This document shows, piece by piece, positions 35,938 through 54,376 of a stretch of DNA of 64,000 bases. The stretch is taken from positions 1 to 64,000 of the forward strand of contig CALUXG010000005.1 in NCBI GenBank assembly GCA_944324685.1. The letters are read 5' to 3'. The DNA is from an uncultured Elusimicrobiales bacterium (GTDB lineage: Bacteria; Elusimicrobiota; Elusimicrobia; Elusimicrobiales; Elusimicrobiaceae). How positions within the stretch are numbered: the stretch's first letter is position 1; each line of letters starts with the position of its first letter. A model generated the notes under the pieces. It ran no database searches, was not told the origin of the DNA, and saw only the letters and a list, made by a program, of their open reading frames with translations. Position numbers and translations under genes: made by a program.

Positions 35938-36339
35938 CTGCTGAATATAAAAAAAGAGTTATTTTGGCGTTTGGCGCATTTTCAAGACACGGCTCTGCGT
36001 TGGGAAAAAATGTTTGAACGAGGAGAAGTGTTAATTTATGCGGCTAAACCCACTTGCTGCACGGAGCAAGTATATCCCGGGCATACAAAGTTTTACGAGA
36101 AATTTGTGGCCTGATGAAAGCAGTACCATGAGGTGCGCTCTGTGGAACTGCCCGATATATGGGTGCGTGATTTTTTGCCGGTGCAAAATGTGCAAACACG
36201 GGAGCGGCATCAGCTGTTTTTTGACCCGCGCTATGCCAATTATACGGCTAAATTTACCGCAGCTATCAGGCAACAGGTGCGGGACGCTTTCTCGTACGCT
36301 GTATTTTGCTGGGTTTTTTACATCTTTGGCGCGACATAG
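35938..36339 (+). pseudogene. Agmatine deiminase-like remnant
   Basis: One reading frame, without a start codon, runs ALRWEKMFERGEVLIYAAK... through two adjacent TGA codons (36112-36117) into YHEVRSVELPDIWVRDFLPVQ and DPRYANYTAKF. The IWVRDFLPVQ motif resembles the agmatine/peptidylarginine deiminase family. The C-terminal catalytic half is missing. Identification is from motif memory only. Confidence 0.45.
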
Positions 36340-36396: not shown

Positions 36397-38394
36397 ATGA
36401 ACTATACGCGCGAACAATATGAGACACTTTACTATCTAAACAAGCTGTTACCCCGCTTGAAAACCTTGAAAAATTTTGAGCGGGATTTGATACTGGCAGC
36501 TAAAAAAATAAAAGAAGACCTCGTGCCCGATTTGAAAAAAACGGATATTTTTGGAGATTGCCCCGAAAAACAAAAAATACTTTCGGAAATAGGGCAAGTA
36601 TTGGCTAAATATGGGAAGGGTTATCAAAAGATTCCGCCAACTGTGTCCCAAAAAAATGTTTCCTATCTGGTGCGTACCTTCCGATTAAATTCAGGGGAGA
36701 GTAGTATTGTATATTTTTTAAGTGCCATGCAAAATAATACACTCTTAAAGGGGTGTTTACAAAAATTTGATGCAGATTTGGAGTCGGAAGAAGATACGCT
36801 AACCACAATAGCGGGGTACCCTAGAGGCATGGGAAATTCCATTTTGAATGCGGAGGCCCCATTGATGCAGCTAGGCATCCTGTTCCGTACGCGCTATAGA
36901 ATGAATTTTCAGCTGAGTGATTGGGCGCACGGGTTTATCCATACCTTACACAGAAATGATGCGGCGCGCCATAAGGCCCTTGTCGGGGCGGCGTTATCAT
37001 CAAAAGATGGCCTGACCGCCAAAGACTTTGCCTATGTGGAAGCGGCCAGTTTAGCCATGCGTCTTATGAAACAGGCCAAGCATGGCAAAGGGTTTAACAT
37101 CCTTTTATATGGAACGCCGGGCACGGGGAAAAGCAGTTTTGCCCATGTGTTGGCCCAATCGGCCAAGCTGCACCTATATCCGGTGGGGGTTTGCAATAAT
37201 GGGGAAGATGAAAGGAACTACCGTTTGCAGCGGTTATACCGCAGGCAATTTTTGCTTAAAAAGGTGAAGAATTGTTGTCTTCTTTTTGACGAAGGGGAAG
37301 ATGTGTTTTCCAGTTCGCAAACGCGTGCCAGCAAAATTGAAATCAATAATCTGCTAGAAAATAACGAAGTCCCCGTTATTTGGACAACCAACAAAATACA
37401 CCGCATGGATCCGGCCTATATCAGGCGTTTTACTTTGGCTGTGTGTTTTGATAAACCGCCGGTAGAGGTGCGGCAAAAAATTTGGAATAAGTATCTGTCC
37501 GTCAACAAAATTGCTTGTACAAAAGATGATACGTTTGCGCTTGCCAAAAAGTACGAAGTTCCTCCGTCTATGATTGCCAGAGCGGCGCAGGCGGCCCGCA
37601 TGGCCAAAGGCGGGTTGGACACCGTAAAAGACCATTTGTCTTTTATGACACAGGCGCTCAACGGCGGGTGTAAACAGCCCGAAGAAAAGGAAACAAACCT
37701 CAAGTTTTATCCAGCTTTAATTCATGCGGATATGGATTTGCAGGTGTTGACTGCCCAATTAACCAGTTTGGGGCGGCTGAATTTTTCGCTTTGTTTATAT
37801 GGCGCAAGCGGAACGGGCAAATCGGCCTATGCGCGGTATTTGGCAGACAAACTGGGGTTAGATCTGCTGCACCGCAGGGCCTCGGACTTAATTAGCTGTT
37901 ATGTGGGGGAAACAGAACAAAATATTGCCAAAGCCTTTGCTCAGGCAAAAGATAATAAATCCATGCTTATTTTTGATGAAGCGGACAGTTTCTTGCGGGA
38001 CCGTTCCACAGCCACACGTTCGTGGGAAGTTTCTAGTGTGAATGAAATGCTTACTTGGATGGAGTCTCATCCATATCCGTTTATTTGCACGACGAATTTA
38101 ATGGAGTCGTTAGATCCCGCCAGTTTGCGGCGGTTTAGTTTTAAGGTTAAATACGACTTCTTGACCAAGCAGCAGGTAAAGGATGCCTTCGCTTACTTTT
38201 TTGGAATAAAAATTACACTGCCTGAAACAGCCGGACTGGATAAACTAACCCCGGGCGATTTTATGCTCGTAAAAAATAAGGCAGAAATTTTGGGAAAGAG
38301 CACGCAATGTAGCGCCATTAAAGAAATGTTGGAAACGGAACAAAAACTGAAACACAGTGCCTATGGAAACGGTATCGGTTTTCGTGTAAATTAA
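36397..38394 (+). CDS. Double AAA+ ATPase
   Basis: 665 aa. An N-terminal helical region (about 1-230) is followed by two AAA modules. Module 1: Walker A GTPGTGKSS (about 239), Walker B CLLFDEGEDVF, sensor WTTN, arginine RRF. Module 2: Walker A GASGTGKSA (about 468), Walker B SMLIFDEADSFL, sensor CTTN, RRF. Both look active, unlike many tandem AAA proteins. No protease or known partner domain. GGGAG ribosome site. It sits at the edge of the accessory region; a remodelling ATPase for an unknown client is the most that can be said. Confidence 0.85.
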   Translation: MNYTREQYETLYYLNKLLPRLKTLKNFERDLILAAKKIKEDLVPDLKKTDIFGDCPEKQKILSEIGQVLAKYGKGYQKIPPTVSQKNVSYLVRTFRLNSGESSIVYFLSAMQNNTLLKGCLQKFDADLESEEDTLTTIAGYPRGMGNSILNAEAPLMQLGILFRTRYRMNFQLSDWAHGFIHTLHRNDAARHKALVGAALSSKDGLTAKDFAYVEAASLAMRLMKQAKHGKGFNILLYGTPGTGKSSFAHVLAQSAKLHLYPVGVCNNGEDERNYRLQRLYRRQFLLKKVKNCCLLFDEGEDVFSSSQTRASKIEINNLLENNEVPVIWTTNKIHRMDPAYIRRFTLAVCFDKPPVEVRQKIWNKYLSVNKIACTKDDTFALAKKYEVPPSMIARAAQAARMAKGGLDTVKDHLSFMTQALNGGCKQPEEKETNLKFYPALIHADMDLQVLTAQLTSLGRLNFSLCLYGASGTGKSAYARYLADKLGLDLLHRRASDLISCYVGETEQNIAKAFAQAKDNKSMLIFDEADSFLRDRSTATRSWEVSSVNEMLTWMESHPYPFICTTNLMESLDPASLRRFSFKVKYDFLTKQQVKDAFAYFFGIKITLPETAGLDKLTPGDFMLVKNKAEILGKSTQCSAIKEMLETEQKLKHSAYGNGIGFRVN

Positions 38395-38982: not shown

Positions 38983-39011
38983 AAAAAGGGAGGGCTTTAC
39001 TCTCCCTTTTT
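38983..39011 (-). terminator. Terminator overlapping the 3' end of the zinc-ribbon gene
   Basis: Perfect 10-bp stem AAAAAGGGAG/CTCCCTTTTT with a 9-nt loop that contains the stop codon region of the minus-strand gene. Confidence 0.7.
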
Positions 39012-39917
39012 GCTCCCCTCTTGCGGCACGACACGGTACCGTGCGCGCGTGCCGTATGTACGTAAGAGTTGATAATAGTCTAAGGCGTCGTTTGTGGCTA
39101 TGAGTTCGTTGCAATTAAGACAATGAAACTTAATGACATGCCTGCCGGAAAGAGGTGAGGCAATGCACGAGTAGGGCCTAAGAGCAGTTTTTTTGCAGCG
39201 CGGGCAAATAGCTTTTGGAAAAGCAGTTTGGGGTGGTTCATAAGAGCCTAGCCAACAGATTCCGAGATGTATAGAGTATCTATTAACATTCTTCTTCTCA
39301 TCTTCTGCCAAAATACCGGAGTATAATTCCCCAAAGTGATAGGTTTTTCTAAATAATGAAATTAGTTTGAAACGTTTTTTATCCTGCTCAAGGGTAAGGG
39401 CCGCCGATAAATCTTTGGTATAAACAGCTTTACAGGAGGTTATAGCGTAATCTCGGCTGGACATATACCAACTCCAAAATTCAGGGGTAATGGCAGAAGC
39501 GTTTGCATAAGCGCGTTCCGCAACGAGCGATGTAGAAACGACAACCTGTATATGCTGCTTCATCAGAGATTTTAGAAATAAGGCCAATTTGTCTTGCTCG
39601 GTTTTATTAAGGTTTTGTAATTCTAACTCGGCAATTAGCACGCAAAATAAGTTTGGGTGCAAACGATGATAACTCATCAGCATCTCGTGTGGCCTAGCCC
39701 TAATAAAATCCAAGATGGCATCTTTTTGCAAGTATAAGATTTTCCGCCCTAGATGTTTTTCACTTAAATCATGATACAACTGCGCTAAAATCAGTCCTCC
39801 GGTAACTTCATCGCCATTGATGATAAAACTGTTATATTGCGGATCTGCGGGGTGTTCGATAATATGTTGCAAACAGGAATTTAAGTCTGGTTCATGCACT
39901 ACAAAGTTTGAGGTCAT
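38997..39917 (-). CDS. DnaA/Hda-like degenerate AAA protein with C-terminal zinc ribbon
   Basis: 306 aa. The order FIINGDEVTGGLILAQLYHDL, RKILYLQKDAILDFI, FCVLIAELELQNLNKTEQDKL, HIQVVVSTS follows the DnaA ATPase core, but the P-loop lacks GKT and Walker B lacks the DD pair, so ATP hydrolysis is unlikely. The C-terminus has ICPRCKKTA...HCLNCNEL, a four-Cys zinc ribbon that may bind nucleic acid. ATG at 39917 follows GGAG. A SAM riboswitch precedes it. The DnaA relation is inference from pattern. Confidence 0.6.
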   Translation of the reverse strand: MTSNFVVHEPDLNSCLQHIIEHPADPQYNSFIINGDEVTGGLILAQLYHDLSEKHLGRKILYLQKDAILDFIRARPHEMLMSYHRLHPNLFCVLIAELELQNLNKTEQDKLALFLKSLMKQHIQVVVSTSLVAERAYANASAITPEFWSWYMSSRDYAITSCKAVYTKDLSAALTLEQDKKRFKLISLFRKTYHFGELYSGILAEDEKKNVNRYSIHLGICWLGSYEPPQTAFPKAICPRCKKTALRPYSCIASPLSGRHVIKFHCLNCNELIATNDALDYYQLLRTYGTRARYRVVPQEGSKKGE

Positions 39918-39993
39918 ACAAATACTCCATAGGATAAATTTCACAGGAGTATAACAAGAAGAGCCATTGTAAAAACGGCTTTTTGAACAGGAG

Positions 39994-40080
39994 CCATCTT
40001 TCAAGCATTAGCACCTTGCATGGGCAGGTTGCTGTGTAGTCCTTGGGCTTGTCCCTCGTACACTCTCTATGGTAAAGATA
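39994..40080 (-). promoter_or_regulatory. SAM-I (S-box) riboswitch aptamer
   Basis: On the minus strand the conserved S-box series occurs in order: P1 ATCTTT (40079-40074), AGAGAG, GAGGGAC, GCCC, GCAACC, AAGGTGCTAAT, and P1' AAAGAT (40001-39996). P2 can form from GTGT/ACAC and GGG/CCC. Downstream GGCT (39995-39992) can pair with AGCC (39980-39977) before TTTTT (39975-39971), a terminator; AGCC can instead pair with a later GGCT (39965-39962). The next gene is the zinc-ribbon protein, not a methionine gene. Confidence 0.82.
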
Positions 40081-40097
40081 GTTTAGTAAAAGTAAAC

Positions 40098-40118: not shown

Positions 40119-40574
40119 TTATGGTTTATGGTTTTTGGCGGGGGCAAACATGAGGCCTATTTTGTCTAAGTCCTCAGTCCACGAATAATCCGGTATAAAA
40201 ATATCCTTGCAGTTGTCTTGTGTTTTGACTGTCTTATATAGCAAAGTGTGAAAAAACTGTTTTAAGTATTTTTCTGCTTTTTCATAGCATTCAGGGTGCT
40301 CTTGCGCTAGGGCTCCTAAGAAACTTATATCTTTTTGTTCGGTAAGGTATAAGTGTAAACAGTCAATATAGGATTTTTTTATTTTGTACTGAAATTCTGC
40401 CGGAAATCTAATCCCTTTTAGGCGTTGCCCGAAGTTTTTGCGAAAATAATCGGTAGTAATGAATCTCTTGGAAGAAATATATTTGAAGAGAAAAATTTCA
40501 AGGTCTTCTTGCTCTTGCTGTTTGTTTGACTCCCTTTTAGGCGTTGGTGCCATATAGTTTAAAATTATCTTCAT
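40119..40574 (-). CDS. Unknown small protein under the shared operator
   Basis: 151 aa, soluble, basic, mostly helical (EDLEIFLFKYISSKRFITTDYFRKNF). No family recognised. AAGGAAA ribosome site before ATG 40574. Its promoter carries the CGACA/TGTCG inverted repeat also found before the 47371 cassette and the TPR gene. Confidence 0.6.
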   Translation of the reverse strand: MKIILNYMAPTPKRESNKQQEQEDLEIFLFKYISSKRFITTDYFRKNFGQRLKGIRFPAEFQYKIKKSYIDCLHLYLTEQKDISFLGALAQEHPECYEKAEKYLKQFFHTLLYKTVKTQDNCKDIFIPDYSWTEDLDKIGLMFAPAKNHKP

Positions 40575-42797: not shown

Positions 42798-43601
42798 TTA
42801 CTTTTCGAGTATTTTTTCTATGTTAGGTATATCGATATCAAATTTTACTTTATGATATTTGAGGCCAATATATGTTCCAATAGCGGTTGGACGATATCTT
42901 TTTAGATCAGAATTTTCCCATTTCTTCTTTATGAATTGATAAACATCAGATTCTTGGACGGATTTTATGTCTATATTGGGATATCTGTTGGAATTATATT
43001 TTTGATTGAAGTCTATATAACCGGGTTCAACCAGAGATAAACAACCTGTGTATGATAAATATTCAAAATCAATAGTTTTGAATTGTGTATCATACAAAGG
43101 TTTAAATGTTACCGTAAGATTTTGTATAAGATCTGTTGTTTCTTTCCCTTCAATCTTACATTTGTGAAATAATGCCAAGATATGGAGAATTCTAAACTGA
43201 CGTTCTAAAAGCTTGCTGATAGTGCGTATGGATTCCTGAGAAATTATTTTTAAAAAATCATTTTTTGTATTTATTCTATCTATTATAATTTCTTCAATAG
43301 TTTTGTCTATGTTTGTGTTATGTTTTTGTGCTGAGATTTTTATGGCTTCCAGATAAGTTTGCAAAAATGCGTAGTCTTGTTTCATTTCATCCCAATTATT
43401 AGGCAACAATCGGGGGCCAATCTCGGACATAAGTTTATTATGGGCTAATAAGAGTTCTTTTTGGATCATATTATGGACATCTTGATATGTCAGGCCAAAG
43501 TTAAAAAAAGTTTGATTACGTTTATCGTTCCCACCAATGATTAAGTTGTTATTTTGCGTATCAGCAAATTTGACTTCGGGATTGATGTTTACTAATCCCA
43601 C
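42798..43601 (-). CDS. LPO_1073/Vpar_1526-like protein
   Basis: 267 aa from a GTG start. Pattern NNNLIIGGNDKRNQ...FGLTYQDVHNMIQKELL followed by a long helical part (AQKHNTNIDKTIEEIIIDRIN, SIRTISKLLERQFRILHILALF) recalls this uncharacterised family, by memory only. AAAGGAG lies before an in-frame ATA/ATT pair (about 43616-43611) upstream of the GTG, so the true start may be non-standard. Very AT-rich; likely partner of the adjacent ATPase. Confidence 0.5.
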   Translation of the reverse strand: MGLVNINPEVKFADTQNNNLIIGGNDKRNQTFFNFGLTYQDVHNMIQKELLLAHNKLMSEIGPRLLPNNWDEMKQDYAFLQTYLEAIKISAQKHNTNIDKTIEEIIIDRINTKNDFLKIISQESIRTISKLLERQFRILHILALFHKCKIEGKETTDLIQNLTVTFKPLYDTQFKTIDFEYLSYTGCLSLVEPGYIDFNQKYNSNRYPNIDIKSVQESDVYQFIKKKWENSDLKRYRPTAIGTYIGLKYHKVKFDIDIPNIEKILEK

Positions 43602-43700
43602 ATCCCCAATTATTGGTTGTGCTCCTTTTATTTTGTAAAGTATATGTTTTATTTATCCAGTTAAACATATGTTCTTTTCCTGTTGTTAATAATACAATTA

Positions 43701-45942
43701 TTAATTTTGTAATTGGGTAATTTGGCCTGGACAAATAGTTTGGAGATATTGGACAATACTTTTACAACAATCTATTAAGTTAGCATCGGTACAAGGTGAA
43801 CAAGTCCTAATGCGTCCGTGAGACAAATCATGGATCAAGCTATAACTAGATTTACAAGATTCAAAAATATGTTCTTGCTTTACGAAATCATAGAGTTCCA
43901 TTTCAGGATATTTGAAATTACAAAGTGTTTCTAATACGTGTCGAATGGAATTGGGAGTTTGAAAAGTTGGTTTCGATTTTTGAATACTAATATCAAAAAT
44001 ATGTCGCAGATGATGTTCATAGGGCAATAGGTATTTGCTGTCTAGTTCACTTAATTTTGAATGATCTAGAAATAATGCAGTTGAGATAATTTTATTTTTA
44101 ATTAAAATACTCATAAATTCAATATTATGAGTTAAAATACTAAAACGAGAATACATTAATTCAAAATTGATTTTGAGATCTCTTATCTCTTGCGCTACCT
44201 GATAAACAAAATTAAAATCAAGACTTGATATAGGGTCATCAATTATTAATAACAATCGTCGATAATCTTCTTTATTATTTACTAAAGAGTGGATCAGTGC
44301 TAGGAAATAACAAAATGCAAGAATACTCTTTTCACCTTCACTTATTTTATCTAAAGCAGATTCTTGTAATGGATAAGTATCATTTAGTTTAAGGAAATGC
44401 TTTTTGGGATCATATGTATATCTATCCTTAAAGAACTCTTTTAATAATTTAGAAAATTCATTGTCAATTGCATCTTGTTTTGCTATTTTTGAATTTTCTT
44501 GTTTTTTCTTTATTTCTTGTTCTAATTTATTTATTTCTTCCCGATAATTTACAATTTTATTAATATCTGGAAGATTCTTATTGCGTAATTCATATAGCAG
44601 TGCGGTGCAAAGATTTTGGCGTAATTTTTTTCTTCTCCATTTGTTGAAATCTTTTTACCCTCTAAATCTACGACGAGTTGGTTTTGTAATGGAAGTTCTT
44701 TTTGTATTTTTTCTACAATGTCCGCAATAGCATCTATTTGCCGGTTACAATCAAAGTCAATTCTTTCTTTTGAAAGCATTTTTTGATCTAATAAAGTATC
44801 AATAACCTTAATGTCGTTCTCGATAGTTTCAAAATCAATATCCAAAGAAAAAGTTTGTTCCTTTATGGAGGGGAAATATTCTTTTTGAATATTATATTTT
44901 GATACAATATCGAGCAATTCCGTGCGATAGGTTTGAATTTGTGTTATTAATGATTTTAAATAATTTTTTGCTTGTGATATATCTTTAGCACATTTACCTT
45001 CTTTATCAGTGAAATAAGTTATGTATCCGTCGATAATGTGTTTAGCTGTTTCATTAAGAGATTGTTCGCAGAAAGGGCATACAGCGGGAGGTGTATCTAA
45101 AAGCGAAACTCCTTGTTCTATGAAAGAATAATGCTCTTGGATCTTCTTTTTGTATTTTTCTGCTACATTAACAAGAGATACTTCTCTTGTCAGTAATTGA
45201 TTAATCTCATACAAGGGTTTTATATTTGGTTGGAAATATAATTGAGATAAAGAGGGTAAATCTTTTGGCAAATTTTGTAGCTTTTCTAAGCTAATCTTTA
45301 TATCTTGAACTTTTTGTGTTGGTTGTTGTTCTTCAAAAATACGTTCGTAAGTAATGTTTGAATATTCTTTAAGGGTAGAAATATATTTAACAGCAGTACT
45401 GATATTTTTCTTTTCTTGATTAATATCATTCCTTATTTTTTCTTCAAGTTCATTAAGTTGGGAAACGAGAGAGATTTTTTTGTTTTCGAGTTCCGCAATT
45501 TTTGCGTTGGTTTCACCTATAATAATTTCTCCAGGGATAGCATTTTTGAGCGTAAATGTATTAAGGGTGAGATTTCTATTTATAAAATCCCTATTAAATG
45601 TGTGTATGATCCATTTGGAATCTTGAGAACAATGGGGTCCTTCATTAATATTCTCTGTCAACGTGAAAATATTTTTTATTTCAGGGGAATTCGAGGTTGG
45701 TTTGGAAGAAAAGCTGAATTCAAACTTCGCTTTTTTTCTCCAAAAGATAGTAGCGGAGAAGTTGCAACAGATTGTTTATTTTGTTGGGCATCTTGAAGAC
45801 AGGAGAAAACTCTACTAATAAAAGTCTTCCCGGATCCATTATTGGCAAAAATCGCCAAATTAAGTGCTTTTATATCTTTTGTAAATGATAAATCGCTTAA
45901 TGGTCCTATGTTATTGATAACCAATTTGAAAGTATTTGTCAT
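43701..45942 (-). pseudogene. AAA_13-type (RloC-like) ATPase broken by two single-base frameshifts
   Basis: Three frames join into a protein of about 747 aa if one A is added in each of two A7 tracts (45737-45731 and 44631-44625). Order: P-loop ANNGSGKTF, coiled coil, zinc-hook motif CPFCEQSL, coiled coil, ABC signature ISEGEKS, Walker B LLIIDDPISSLD, switch LTHN, C-terminal helical part (RHVLETLCNF...IHDLSHGR). AAA_13 proteins include the anticodon nucleases PrrC/RloC and other defence ATPases; no nuclease motif is confirmed here. Base composition is much more AT-rich than the surroundings. Confidence 0.75.
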
Positions 45943-46097: not shown

Positions 46098-47039
46098 TTA
46101 GGGTTCTATATGTTTAGGACATTTGTTTAGATAATTCTCAAGTTGTTTATGCAAAGTTTGTTTCAGTTCCTTGGGGCTTATTATTTGGATAGGGGGCAGC
46201 CAGCGTTGGATTTGCGGAAGGACCTGCATAAAATTAGCTGTTTTGCACGAAATGAGCAAAGAACCGTCTTTTAGTTCTTTTTCAATTTTTTGGTAGGGGA
46301 AAAATTCTACCTCTTTAAAATATCCGGCAATGGGTGGGGCAATTTTTAGTTTAATTTCTACATTTTGCTCCGTATCAAACCAAATATTGGGCGACTGTGC
46401 CAATTTGTCGTCAATGGCGACAGGCGCAAAAGTTTGAGCATGGGTACGTACTTGATCAATACGCCCAAGTGAAAATTTCATGAAGGTATTCCAACTATTA
46501 AGGGTAATTAAGTACCAAAATCCGTCAAATAGGGCTATTTTTAAGGGACGCACCTGACGGCTCCAGGCCCGTTTAGTTTTGGACTTATAATAAACATCTA
46601 TATACTGGTGTGTTAAAATGGCCTGTTCTAATTTTTCCAAAATAGCAGGGGAAATACTATGCCACATCCGCGGCATTTTAATAAAGTAGATATCTTGCGG
46701 ATTGGGGCGCACAAATTGTTCGGTCAGCCGTTTAAAACTGGCGTGCCAGTTGGAGCCCAAAGATTCGGCTAACTGCCCGGTAAGGGCAAGGAGTGCTTTA
46801 TCTCGCGCGGAAAGCGGCATCTTGCGCAAGGAAAACCCTTCCACAAACCCATATCTCCCAGCAGCAATTTCGGTCAAAGGAAACCCGGCGCGTTCTATCT
46901 CGTGTAAATCGCGTTGTAAGGTGCGCGCGGAAAAGCCGAGTTCTTTGGCTTCTTGCGTAAGCGTAATGCGCCCCCTGTCTAACTTATTAAGTAGATACAA
47001 AATACGGGTAAATTTATGCAAGGTGGCAGATTTAATCAT
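46098..47039 (-). CDS. WYL-domain transcriptional regulator
   Basis: 313 aa. N-terminal HTH (about 6-60: LTQEAKELGFSARTLQRDLHEIERAGF), central WYL domain (about 140-225: VRPLKIALFDGFWYLITLNSW) and WCX-like C-terminus. WYL regulators of this size (CapW/BrxR type) repress phage-defence operons and sense nucleic-acid ligands. It is divergent from the structured RNA and cassette. Promoter TTGGCA-17 bp-TATAAT-6 nt-ATG, leaderless. Confidence 0.9.
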   Translation of the reverse strand: MIKSATLHKFTRILYLLNKLDRGRITLTQEAKELGFSARTLQRDLHEIERAGFPLTEIAAGRYGFVEGFSLRKMPLSARDKALLALTGQLAESLGSNWHASFKRLTEQFVRPNPQDIYFIKMPRMWHSISPAILEKLEQAILTHQYIDVYYKSKTKRAWSRQVRPLKIALFDGFWYLITLNSWNTFMKFSLGRIDQVRTHAQTFAPVAIDDKLAQSPNIWFDTEQNVEIKLKIAPPIAGYFKEVEFFPYQKIEKELKDGSLLISCKTANFMQVLPQIQRWLPPIQIISPKELKQTLHKQLENYLNKCPKHIEP

Positions 47040-47606: not shown

Positions 47607-49442
47607 ATGTCAATAAATTGGAATTCCATGTTTCTTTCTGTCGCAACGGGAGTGGAACAAATTATAAAAATTGTTTGGCTTGTCCTTTCGTTTTTACCAA
47701 TGGGGTATTTTCGTTTTATTGTGGATTGTTGGAATTCTCATCCTTTTTGGACAATCTTTCTTTCTCCTTTTATTATAGCAGGTGCTATTATTATCCTTTA
47801 TTTAGAAGGAGGGTTGTTATATCTGCTAGGTATAGGTTTTGTAAAATTATGTGAATTATTGATGGAAGGTGTTGGTAAGAGTATATTTTTGATAACCGAA
47901 ATTATTTCTTGGTTACTGTGTGCGTTTAAAACAATGGTGCATTGGATTTATATGTGTACTGTCGGTTGGATTGGTCTATTATATGCACGTCTGGTATATG
48001 GGAAAAAACAAATTGGATATTATCCGGATTCTTGGGCTGTGCGTCAGATTTATTACCTTAAAAATGGACAAAAAAACGGTCCGGAAAAATTTTATTATCA
48101 CTCTGGTAAAATAAATAAAATACAAACATGGCAACAGGGGAAAAAGCAAGGAGCATTTACTATTTTTTATCCATCGGGCGAAGTGTATTTCTTCGGGCAG
48201 TATAAGGATGATGTGCTTGTGCAACCTATAAAAGTAAATTATTTAGAGCATTCTCAAAGGATATCTTTAGACTTAACACAAATAAACAGAGACTATGTAA
48301 ACAAGCAACAACAACTTTGCAAAAATTATCAACAGGAATACGAAGAATTGACGCAAGTAGAGCTTGATGTGATAGAAGATGCCTGCGACGCATACAAAGG
48401 GAATTGGCTTATCGAAGTAGCTCGGTGGTCTTATAGATTACAAGTGAAATATCCTAAAAAAGTTATCAAATCAGTTACGGGCATCAAAGCATATCAGGAC
48501 CGCAAGAAAGCCAAACAATTAGTAGCAATATGTTCCCCTTGGTATGAGACTGCTTGCCAGACGACTCAATATCACCAACGGAAAATGAGAAAAAGTATCA
48601 ATGATTTAGGCAAGATACGTTTAGAGGTTTTGCAAGGAGTTGTGGGAGAATTTTTGGGTTGTCTGAAAGATATGAATCAAAAAAATAAAATCAACTACTA
48701 TGAATTGCTTGGAAAAATCGGAATTACCCCACAAGTGGCTAAAGAATTTGGTGATATAGATATGTCGGTATCAAAGTTATCTTCCAATACACTATTGGTA
48801 GGCACTTTGGGTACTTTAACAGCTGCTAGCACACCAGCTGCTGTTACTTCTGCTGTTGCCGCTTGGGCAACTGCTTCTACGGGTACGGCTATTTCTTCGC
48901 TTAGTGGGGCTGCGGCTACCAATGCAACCTTAGCGTGGTTAGGTGGAGGAAGTATTGCTTCTGGCGGTGGCGGTATGGCGGCCGGTGCGGCTACATTAAC
49001 CACGGCTACCACTATGGCTACGGCGGGAGTGGCAATTGTGGCCGCAGGACTAATGGCTACTGTGCATTATTCTAATAAGTTGACCAAAATTACCGAAAAA
49101 GCTGCCAATATGGCGGTAGATATAGCAAAAATGGAAGGAAGCTGGGTGGCTATGGATGCTATTGTTGAGCGAGCTAATGAACTGACAAAAGCTACTTTTG
49201 AAATACAACAAAAAGCATTGGCCGCTCTTGAAAGACTTAAGCCACTTGCCCCTGATTTTAATACCCAAGATGAATACTACAACAAAACATTCCGCACCAC
49301 GGCGCGGTTGGTAGAGGCACTTATCGGGTTAGTTAAAATTGCTTTGCTGGATGAAGTGGGAAACTTGAATGATATGGGACTCAAAGAAATAGCTCATACA
49401 AGAGAAATAATAAAAAATACGGAGTTGGTAACTTATGAATAA
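47607..49442 (+). CDS. MORN-repeat membrane protein with Gly/Ala-rich hydrophobic segment
   Basis: 611 aa. Three or so N-terminal helices (about 15-125), then MORN-type repeats (QIYYLKNGQKNGPEKFYYHSG, QQGKKQGAFTIFYPSGE; about 145-200), a helical central part, and a long Gly/Ala/Thr-rich hydrophobic stretch (about 400-480: AWLGGGSIASGGGGMAAG...) that could insert into a membrane, then a helical tail. No enzymatic motif. Its architecture suggests a membrane-acting effector controlled by the other cassette proteins (inference). Confidence 0.7.
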   Translation: MSINWNSMFLSVATGVEQIIKIVWLVLSFLPMGYFRFIVDCWNSHPFWTIFLSPFIIAGAIIILYLEGGLLYLLGIGFVKLCELLMEGVGKSIFLITEIISWLLCAFKTMVHWIYMCTVGWIGLLYARLVYGKKQIGYYPDSWAVRQIYYLKNGQKNGPEKFYYHSGKINKIQTWQQGKKQGAFTIFYPSGEVYFFGQYKDDVLVQPIKVNYLEHSQRISLDLTQINRDYVNKQQQLCKNYQQEYEELTQVELDVIEDACDAYKGNWLIEVARWSYRLQVKYPKKVIKSVTGIKAYQDRKKAKQLVAICSPWYETACQTTQYHQRKMRKSINDLGKIRLEVLQGVVGEFLGCLKDMNQKNKINYYELLGKIGITPQVAKEFGDIDMSVSKLSSNTLLVGTLGTLTAASTPAAVTSAVAAWATASTGTAISSLSGAAATNATLAWLGGGSIASGGGGMAAGAATLTTATTMATAGVAIVAAGLMATVHYSNKLTKITEKAANMAVDIAKMEGSWVAMDAIVERANELTKATFEIQQKALAALERLKPLAPDFNTQDEYYNKTFRTTARLVEALIGLVKIALLDEVGNLNDMGLKEIAHTREIIKNTELVTYE

Positions 49443-52136: not shown

Positions 52137-52520
52137 ATGCAAAACTATACACATTTGACCGCCCGGGAATTAGAATCAAAATGGCAAGAATTAATCGGCA
52201 GTCCTATACCGCCAATCGGGCGAAGTCTGATTATTAAATATCTAGTATGGTATGAGCAAGCCAAGCGTGAGAAAATCTCTCCGCTTGGCTTGTTTTGTGA
52301 CGTGGCCCAAGCAGCCAAAACGACCGATAAACACCCCAAAGCCACCCTTGAGATAGGCTCAAAACTAATCCGTTCCTATCAAGGGCTTAAATACGAAGTA
52401 GAAATCGTTGCCAATGGGTATCTATATGAGAACACACTCTACAAAAGCCTATCCGGTGTAGCCAAGGCTATTACAGGTAAGAGTTGGAACGGAAATATAT
52501 TCTTTGGAGTGAAGAAATGA
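52137..52520 (+). CDS. DUF2924 protein
   Basis: 127 aa. LTARELESKWQELIGSPIPPIGRSLIIKYLVWYEQ at the start and YLYENTLYKSLSGVAKAITGKSWNGNIFFGV at the end are the DUF2924 pattern. The family usually lies directly before a large serine recombinase, as here (ATGA overlap). Probably assists recombination or its control; role unproven. AGGAG ribosome site. Confidence 0.88.
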   Translation: MQNYTHLTARELESKWQELIGSPIPPIGRSLIIKYLVWYEQAKREKISPLGLFCDVAQAAKTTDKHPKATLEIGSKLIRSYQGLKYEVEIVANGYLYENTLYKSLSGVAKAITGKSWNGNIFFGVKK

Positions 52521-54133
52521 ATGATAAAAAAATACGTTGTGCAATCTATACGCGCAAATCAACGGAAGAGGGATTAGAGCAAGAGTTTAATAGTTTACAA
52601 GCCCAGCGGGAAGCGTGTGAATCCTACATTAAGAGCCAAAAGCACGAGAATTGGCAGTTATTGCCCACAGAGTATGATGACGGTGGGTATTCAGGCGGCA
52701 ACATGGAAAGGCCGGCCCTAAAACGACTACTCCAAGATGTTCAAAACGGTCTTGTTGATATTATCGTTGTTTACAAAATAGACCGGTTAACCCGAAGTTT
52801 AATGGACTTTAGCAAGATAGTAGAAGTATTAGATAAACATAATGCCTCTTTTGTATCTATTACCCAACATTTTAATACCACTACCAGTATGGGGCGGCTC
52901 ACATTAAATATGCTCCTCTCATTTGCCCAATTTGAGAGGGAAGTGACGGGAGAGCACATAAGGGATAAAATTAGTGCGAGTAAGAAAAAAGGTATGTGGA
53001 TGGGTGGCAAACCGCCATTGGGGTATTACCGCAAAGATAAAAAGATATATCCGGATGAAGAGAAATCAGCCCTAGTCCACGCTATCTTTGAAAAGTACAC
53101 TGAACTTAAAAGCACTACCTTGTTAAAAGATTGGCTCAAAGAACAAGGGCAAAATATATCCGTAGGCAACTTGAACTGTATTTTGCGCAACAAAGCATAT
53201 ATTGGTCTTGTCGGGCATAAAGGGACATGGTATCAGGGCGAGCACCGAGGCATAATTCCAACCGAACTATTTGAGCAGGTACAAAATGTCATGGCGGACA
53301 ACCGTATTAATCGTCAGCATTATGACCCAAAGAAAAGCCTTTTATCCGGCAAACTATATGATGATAAAGGAAATGCTATGAGCCCTAGTTGGAGTACGGG
53401 TTGCAGCGGTAAAACATACCGCTATTATGTAAGCCAAGCCATTATCCGCAAAGAACCAAGTAAATTAGGTAAAATCGGCAAAGTATCCTTACCACAACTG
53501 GAAAACTTTATAGATAGTTGGTTTGAGCGTTTCCTACTTGATAAAACTAAACCTTATCAATATGTTCAGCACTTTGAAGTATCCAAGCAAAAGAAACTAT
53601 TACAACTACTGTCATCTTATACAATAACCCGGGATATAGAAAAAGCCCTAATCAAGCATATTAAACTAAGACCTAACGAAGTAGAAATAACCTTGCATGC
53701 GGAACAAATAGTAGAACTATTCAACGCTATTTATGAAAACCGGGAAATGGGCTTACTTAAACCCGAAGAATTGAAACAAGAACGCACCTACACGGAGCCG
53801 TATCATATCGGTACAATAGCCAACGGAGAAAAGATAATTATAGGGCAATTTGTAGAGCCAAAGAAACGGCCTAATGCTGAACTTATCAAAATCTTAAATC
53901 AAGCTTACACATGGCACCAAGATGTATTAAACGGTGCTAGCACACAGGATATAGCCAAACGTGATAAGGTATGCGTACAATATGTTCGCCGAATCCTCAA
54001 TTTAAGTTTTTTGTCCCCTAAAATCGTACGTGCTATCCTAAACGGTACCCAACCAACCGATTGCACCCTCAAAAAATTGCTTTCTATCAAATCCTCAAAT
54101 TGGCAAGAACAAGAGCAACTTTTTCACAAATAA
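52517..54133 (+). CDS. Large serine recombinase
   Basis: 538 aa. Resolvase domain with nucleophile Ser15 (YTRKSTEEGLEQEFNSLQAQ), VVYKIDRLTRS and SFAQFERE, then the recombinase domain (GKPPLGYYRKD...NLNCILRNKAYIG) and a C-terminal region with a helix-turn-helix-like segment (ASTQDIAKRDKVCVQYVRRIL). It should integrate and excise the surrounding island. The gene ends about 100 bp from the right direct repeat and tRNA-Asp. Confidence 0.94.
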   Translation: MNDKKIRCAIYTRKSTEEGLEQEFNSLQAQREACESYIKSQKHENWQLLPTEYDDGGYSGGNMERPALKRLLQDVQNGLVDIIVVYKIDRLTRSLMDFSKIVEVLDKHNASFVSITQHFNTTTSMGRLTLNMLLSFAQFEREVTGEHIRDKISASKKKGMWMGGKPPLGYYRKDKKIYPDEEKSALVHAIFEKYTELKSTTLLKDWLKEQGQNISVGNLNCILRNKAYIGLVGHKGTWYQGEHRGIIPTELFEQVQNVMADNRINRQHYDPKKSLLSGKLYDDKGNAMSPSWSTGCSGKTYRYYVSQAIIRKEPSKLGKIGKVSLPQLENFIDSWFERFLLDKTKPYQYVQHFEVSKQKKLLQLLSSYTITRDIEKALIKHIKLRPNEVEITLHAEQIVELFNAIYENREMGLLKPEELKQERTYTEPYHIGTIANGEKIIIGQFVEPKKRPNAELIKILNQAYTWHQDVLNGASTQDIAKRDKVCVQYVRRILNLSFLSPKIVRAILNGTQPTDCTLKKLLSIKSSNWQEQEQLFHK

Positions 54134-54234: not shown

Positions 54235-54306
54235 ATAAAAAAATCCCCGTCGGGAGTTAATCCTAACGGGGATCTATGCTAATTATTCAAAACTAAAATA
54301 CGGAGT
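54235..54306. repeat. Right direct repeat next to tRNA-Asp
   Basis: Partner of 41201-41270. Contains the tRNA-Asp terminator (TCCCCGT 54244-54250 / ACGGGGA 54266-54272, A7 on the plus strand = T7 on the transcript) and ends in the tRNA acceptor stem. Confidence 0.75.
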
Positions 54307-54376
54307 CGACGGGATTCGAACCCGCGGTCTCTGCCTTGACAGGGCAGCGTGTTAGACCAGGCTACACCACGACTCC
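54301..54376 (-). tRNA. tRNA-Asp (GTC)
   Basis: Minus strand; acceptor GGAGTCG/CGACTCC, anticodon stem CTGCC/GGCAG with loop CTGTCAA, anticodon GTC, T loop TTCGAAT. CCA is not encoded. Its 3' end faces the recombinase island. Confidence 0.96.

Follow-up and report, generated by a model that had tools for sequence, protein, structure and literature searches.

The 64,000-nucleotide stretch analyzed here (the window; positions 1 to 64,000 of contig CALUXG010000005.1, assembly GCA_944324685.1, from an uncultured Elusimicrobiales bacterium) carries on its minus strand an S-adenosylmethionine (SAM) aptamer of the SAM-I, or S-box, class that lacks helix P4 and stands directly upstream of a gene, starting at 39917, for a 306-amino-acid (aa) protein with a DnaA-like fold and a zinc ribbon. 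It is clear from our results that this RNA is a real SAM-I-class aptamer without P4, that its family is widespread and occurs on both core and mobile DNA, and that in this family the 5' strand of helix P1 has a conserved, covarying second pairing. We consider it probable that the RNA is a functional SAM-I-type riboswitch of this P4-less variant family, an OFF switch that combines a transcription terminator with a lock on the Shine-Dalgarno (SD) sequence. A sequence-only reading had already proposed a SAM riboswitch in front of this gene; the S-box core motifs that it listed were all located on the minus strand, in the order that it gave, within 39917-40080, while the absence of P4, the second platform at the ribosome-binding site, and the wide family had escaped it. 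The elements of the leader are as follows.

40080..40085, minus strand: -10-like box TAAACT, abutting the aptamer upstream; relatives have TATACT or TATAAT at the equal place, as judged by eye
39991..40075, minus strand: SAM-I (S-box) aptamer, P4-less, 85 nt, from Rfam RF00162, the family alignment, and covariation
40069..40072, minus strand: P1 5' strand (P1-5') CCAU, which with junction J1/2 also pairs the anti-SD element
40048..40051, minus strand: pseudoknot strand CAAG in loop L2, pairing CUUG at 40002-40005; 100% paired in 86 and in 41 sequences, with compensatory changes
40002..40005, minus strand: pseudoknot strand CUUG; the usual P4 site comes next, and base 40001 already belongs to J4/1
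39992..40001, minus strand: antiterminator 5' strand AAAGAUGGCU, overlapping the P1 3' strand and forming 10 bp with 39971-39980
39994..39997, minus strand: P1 3' strand (P1-3') AUGG, doubling as part of the antiterminator
39962..39980, minus strand: terminator hairpin AGCCGUU-uuuac-AAUGGCU, followed by CUUCUUGUU (39953-39961)
39941..39949, minus strand: anti-SD element CUCCUGUGA, complement of P1-5'/J1/2 (CAUAG-A-GAG)
39922..39952, minus strand: SD-sequestering hairpin AUACUCC...GGAGUAU, with the SD GGAG at 39925-39928
38997..39917, minus strand: regulated gene, 306 aa, with a DnaA domain III-like AAA+ fold without Walker A and a C-terminal zinc ribbon

A scan of the window with all Rfam families (cmscan) matched RF00162 at 39991-40075 on the minus strand with 45.3 bits, above the gathering score of 44.4, which bears out the class assignment of the sequence-only reading; the expectation value (E) is 4.1e-7 for 64 kb and 4227 families and 2.1e-9 for the genome alone, and RF00162 is the best-scoring model of its clan. 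The score is low mainly because P4 is absent: the pseudoknot strand CUUG (40005-40002) runs straight into AAAGAUGG of J4/1 and P1, so that P4 is missing exactly. A covariance model trained on the P4-less family scores the window copy at 98.7 bits, with the copy itself among the training rows; this score and the many relatives place the match far outside chance. Its P1 is just 4 bp long, and the core, the pseudoknot, and the SAM-contact bases are all retained. An RF00162 search of the 1.4 Mb genome returned this S-box as the sole one, and there is none at the metK gene of the same genome, which lies on another contig.

The structure is supported by covariation in two sets of sequences. Among 86 non-redundant P4-less aptamers, gathered in part with a search pattern in which P2b, P3, and some of the pseudoknot are fixed, 96.3% of the pair cells hold standard pairs, against 28-40% with partners slid, and 11 pairs show two-sided changes, a count reached in none of 500 shuffles. 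The second set, of 41 aptamers gathered mainly by the covariance model and fitted to that model, has 16 such pairs, and helices P1, P2a/P2b, and P3 are supported in both sets. The pseudoknot is absent from the model, yet it is fully paired in the 41 sequences, with A-U, G-C, and C-G exchanges. Positions 40065, 40031, 40030, 40013, and 40012 are invariant in the family alignment (A1), and 39996 is nearly so; we take these to correspond to the SAM contacts known from T. tengcongensis, G11, C44, A45, U57, G58, and U88.

With SAM-I the window RNA shares P1, P2 with its kink-turn, P3, the L2-J3/4 pseudoknot, the SAM-contact positions, and the terminator/antiterminator layout of an OFF switch. It differs in that P4 is gone without replacement, in the conserved second platform on P1-5', and in its association mostly with accessory genes, mobile DNA, and phages. 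Because P4 is absent from the window copy and from the whole family alignment, we file the RNA as a variant rather than as a standard RF00162 member. SAM-IV also lacks P4, which is there replaced by hairpin P5 and PK-2 (PMC6890682). SAM-IV (RF00634) and SAM-I/IV share the clan and the ligand core with the window RNA; however, PK-2 of SAM-IV goes through the P3 loop, which is short and variable here. Membership in SAM-IV or SAM-I/IV was rejected, as the alignment has no conserved P5/PK-2 and RF00162 is the best match in the clan. In the searchable literature, with most subscription papers outside the search, we found no description of a P4-less SAM-I without P5/PK-2, of the architecture of this variant, of S-boxes in Elusimicrobia, or of SAM riboswitches in Ruminococcus phages.

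The family has more than 100 members, in Elusimicrobiota, gut Clostridia, Erysipelotrichaceae, Gastranaerophilales, and phages. In the phylum of the window genome, RF00162 is matched in 46 of 341 genomes; relatives of the window RNA are present in 23 genomes of its genus (counting the window genome) and also in further families of the phylum. Match length is mostly 85-89 nt in the window's own family of genomes and 100-140 nt, with P4, in more distant members. By pattern scanning, at least 80 contigs were seen to carry the short form; they come from gut Clostridia, Ruminococcus, Lachnospiraceae, Erysipelotrichaceae, Gastranaerophilales, Spirochaetia, and others. Searches of viral contigs gave first 9 and then 13 that carry it, and such contigs encode terminase, tape measure, baseplate, integrase, and DNA methyltransferase; the complete Ruminococcus phage NatCom_28274 (PV036439.1) has a P4-less aptamer (44045-44129) ahead of a hypothetical gene of 297 bp. 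In a pattern-free survey, 200 genomes from a Ruminococcus-type family were searched with the covariance model, and the scores were bimodal, with 31 matches at or above 76.7 bits (23 genomes) and many, about one per genome, at or below 66.7 bits. All 22 of the high-scoring loci that were fetched lack P4, and the genes after such loci encode mostly a ~95-aa protein without a known family but also N-formylglutamate-amidohydrolase-like (FGase-like), methylthioadenosine/S-adenosylhomocysteine (MTA/SAH)-deaminase-like, and MetK proteins. Six of seven low-scoring loci examined precede metK, the contig of the seventh ending too early to tell, and some single genomes hold both a P4-bearing S-box at metK and a P4-less one at an accessory gene. 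Two metK S-boxes of this survey with an otherwise canonical P1 (L286, L287) have no P4, apparently through independent loss, which suggests that the loss is tolerated. Tandem P4-less units at L267 (two copies 594 bp apart) and L281 suggest local duplication of riboswitch-gene cassettes.

Downstream of the aptamer, a terminator hairpin with a U-rich tail is present in 98 of 103 family leaders and forms in 73 of 77 when P1 is withheld. The 3' strand of P1 competes for its 5' arm with a mean pairing energy of -10.6 kcal/mol (z -3.0 against shuffles); in the window, AAAGAUGGCU (40001-39992) pairs AGCCGUUUUU (39980-39971). All three strands have changed in step between relatives and the window, with GGG becoming GGCU in P1-3', CCC becoming AGCC in the terminator 5' arm, and GGG becoming GGCU in its 3' arm. 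The two states of the window leader are nearly isoenergetic (-31.3 kcal/mol for P1 plus terminator, -32.1 for the antiterminator), and its ligand-free minimum-free-energy structure (MFE) contains both the antiterminator and the helix between P1-5' and the anti-SD element. The sequence-only reading had described mutually exclusive GGCT/AGCC pairings that could switch a T5 terminator: the exclusion is real, although the assigned roles were swapped, and the T5 run sits in the antiterminator, the actual terminator being at 39962-39980. A terminator GGCT..AGCC-GTTTTT was rejected, since the strand equivalent to AGCCGTTTTT in relatives is the 5' arm of the downstream terminator.

A second conserved element (CUCUUUAUGG, CUCUCUGUGG, CUC-CUGUGG, and others) lies between the terminator and the start codon and is complementary to P1-5' and J1/2 (CCAUAAAGAG and others), with a mean of -9.5 kcal/mol (z -3.6) in the family and -9.1 kcal/mol in the window. 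The pairing is type-specific: CCUAU strands reach -9.7 when matched to leaders of their own type and -6.7 when matched to those of the CCAU type, and singletons also prefer their own leader (L118, -13.2 against about -6; L159, -11.4 against about -6.4). No such pairing is seen in 15 P4-bearing S-boxes drawn from Clostridia and the window's own phylum (z +0.4). In many leaders, the window's included (AUACUCC/GGAGUAU), the element is the 5' arm of the SD hairpin, and together these data suggest a two-strand double lock, with P1-3' serving the terminator and P1-5' the ribosome site.

In the mechanism that we propose, SAM would stabilize P1, the terminator at 39962-39980 would then form, and transcription would end; in any read-through transcript, the SD would be held in the AUACUCC/GGAGUAU hairpin. 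At low SAM, P1 would open and its strands could act apart: P1-3' (AAAGAUGGCU) would capture the terminator 5' arm and cause antitermination, and P1-5' with J1/2 (CAUAGAGAG) would capture the anti-SD element (CUCCUGUG) and release the SD. Both locks would open only at low SAM, and the DnaA-fold/zinc-ribbon protein would therefore be made only then. We infer the ligand, the switching direction (induction at low SAM), and the translational layer from these pairings and their conservation.

Several observations weigh against this proposal. As P4 aids folding in known SAM-I members, affinity for the ligand could be low here. The SD pairs upstream sequence in 71 of 77 MFEs, moderately above the shuffled control (53 +/- 4), and only 21 of 77 leaders have the antiterminator and the anti-SD pairing together in their free MFE, so that cotranscriptional order must matter. 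In the window, the anti-SD element is mismatched (CUGUGA for CUGUGG) and has a bulged A, with a z of just -2.0, and the U-tract (CUUCUUGUU) is weaker than in relatives. The modest excess of SD pairing, and the fact that the terminator and antiterminator are the best-supported parts, would also fit a transcription-only S-box, in which the terminator regulates and the pairing of P1-5' with the pre-SD element has another role, for example to keep the read-through transcript locked in its unbound form or to protect the mRNA 5' end, near which P1-5' would lie, being about 8 nt past the -10 box. We regard this as a serious alternative, though a somewhat unlikely one, as the element is immediately upstream of the SD, covaries with P1-5', and overlaps the anti-SD arm in many leaders, with strong arms in L097, L101, L118, and L123.

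S-boxes are textbook metabolic switches whose usual targets are methionine and SAM genes, and the gene behind the window aptamer is neither. The best argument that SAM is likely still the ligand of the P4-less family is the occurrence of the P4-less form before metK in at least four genomes (L105, L117, L160, L268); in Erysipelotrichaceae, it is the P4-less form itself that stands at metK. A shift of the aptamer to SAH, MTA, or another adenosyl compound would explain why most genes downstream of P4-less aptamers are not methionine genes, and one such aptamer (L272) precedes an MTA/SAH-deaminase-like gene. With the SAM-contact-equivalent positions conserved and metK under P4-less control, we think such a shift quite unlikely.

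It may also be asked whether the window copy is an S-box in decay that travels with mobile DNA and no longer switches. Its RF00162 score barely above the cut-off, the degraded U-tract and anti-SD mismatch, and the broken genes elsewhere in the island (a PrrC-like gene is in pieces) are what decay would leave, but P1-3' and both terminator arms have changed together in this copy and the regulated gene is intact, so we consider decay improbable. That the inverted repeat CCAUAGAGAG...CUCUCUGUGG, which flanks aptamer and terminator in diverse genomes, represents the ends of a small mobile element resembling a miniature inverted-repeat transposable element rather than an RNA pairing is very improbable, because many of its pairs are G-U (CUCUUUGUGG with CCAUAAAGAG), which pair in RNA but mismatch in DNA repeats, and it keeps nearly constant distances from both the -10 box and the SD.

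The DnaA-like character of the regulated protein, also put forward in the sequence-only reading, is supported by its AlphaFold2 model (predicted local distance difference test score 86.9, predicted template modeling score 0.81), for which the best Foldseek matches are DnaA domain III structures (8btg, 2z4r, 8bv3; E about 2e-5, TM 0.4-0.5). Pfam Bac_DnaA scores 16.3 bits, under its cut-off of 23, and searches of Pfam, PHROGs, PADLOC, and PDB sequences gave nothing above cut-off. The Walker A lysine is lacking (GDEVTGGL in the window protein; no GxxGxGKT in homologs), and for this reason we speak of a DnaA-like fold and do not file the protein as DnaA. The four cysteines of the zinc ribbon (C-x2-C...C-x2-C) are conserved across homologs. 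The protein is probably AAA+-derived and is predicted to be without ATPase activity; its zinc ribbon is of the nucleic-acid type, and one may guess that it serves the mobile element as an accessory factor in DNA binding or in connection with replication. Other genomes keep riboswitch and gene family together: the family is riboswitch-linked in nine, with full-length relatives in G021, G022, G024, and G096 and a truncated one in G042, all adjoining a P4-less aptamer, and zinc-ribbon-only relatives stand beside one in G082, G103, and a Gastranaerophilales genome (L159).

Other genes recur with these riboswitches. A 151-aa protein is encoded upstream of the window riboswitch (40119-40574); its homologs are directly riboswitch-controlled in G022 and G065, and in G022 the riboswitch is followed by the small gene of this family and then by the DnaA-fold gene. 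The commonest target of the P4-less riboswitch in Clostridia and phages is the ~95-aa family (L271:1688-1975 and homologs, alignment A4; phage contigs L094-L101), which belongs to no Pfam family and whose confident AlphaFold2 model (pLDDT 92) matched no PDB fold below E 3. In Elusimicrobia (L074, L076, L079, L085, and others), the P4-less riboswitch precedes open reading frames of 41-48 aa ending in FGYNDWDIYHG, possibly microproteins. FGase-like genes recur either under control of the P4-less riboswitch or as neighbors of the DnaA-fold gene (L129, L130, L165, L168, L262, L070), and another adjoins a DnaA-fold gene at L054:7127-7849. Between two serine recombinase genes lies a riboswitch-controlled gene (L065:6471-6893) whose 140-aa product matches AbiJ_NTD5 weakly (E 4e-5, below cut-off).

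The placement of the riboswitch in accessory DNA held up as well: window positions 34000-54300 have a G+C content of 29-45%, against about 50% in the flanks, and the region ends at a serine recombinase gene adjoining a tRNA gene. Its landmarks, together with a SoFic-like Fic gene, are these.

42798-45661: broken PrrC-like AAA_13 gene (PrrC/PDC-S06-like, fragmented)
46098-47039: WYL regulator
47607-49442: PDC-M09A-like gene
52484-54133: serine recombinase
54301-54376: tRNA gene

From the low G+C content, the recombinase at the tRNA gene, and the SoFic-like, PrrC-like, WYL, and PDC-M09A-like genes, the island looks mobile and partly defence-related. No PLSDB match indicated plasmid carriage, and no direct repeats longer than 12 bp, as expected of att sites, were found around it. 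A 665-aa tandem AAA ATPase (36397-38394) occurs in 20 of 66 genomes of the genus, and in G021 and G065 it lies near the DnaA-fold gene or related riboswitch genes; a remnant at 36133-36339 resembles a deiminase-like gene (ELPDIWVRDFLPVQN) that is intact in the same two genomes.

Dual expression platforms are known from other riboswitches, in which the terminator overlaps the ribosome-binding site (Barrick and Breaker 2007, PMC2258182). There too, one aptamer may attenuate transcription and then translation, whereas here a separate SD hairpin lies downstream of the terminator and would be addressed by the P1 5' strand; one platform per P1 strand would lend itself naturally to tight dual control. 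Metabolite riboswitches on phages likewise have a precedent in the glutamine riboswitches of Melnitz-like phages (PMC9004378), although aptamer class, ligand, and genes differ. It is a guess, and a doubtful one, that mobile elements and phages of gut bacteria use this stripped-down S-box as an alarm for falling SAM that switches on accessory or defence-related genes otherwise kept double-locked, the trigger being, for example, another phage that destroys SAM to blunt methylation-based defence, or methionine starvation of the host. The P4-less family provides a minimal aptamer of about 80 nt and marks the ~95-aa, zinc-ribbon/DnaA-fold, and FGase-like families as a common set that is probably under SAM control. 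The presence of a P4-less S-box across phages, islands, and several phyla, before proteins without an evident metabolic role, suggests that the level of SAM serves as a cue for something besides the supply of methionine.
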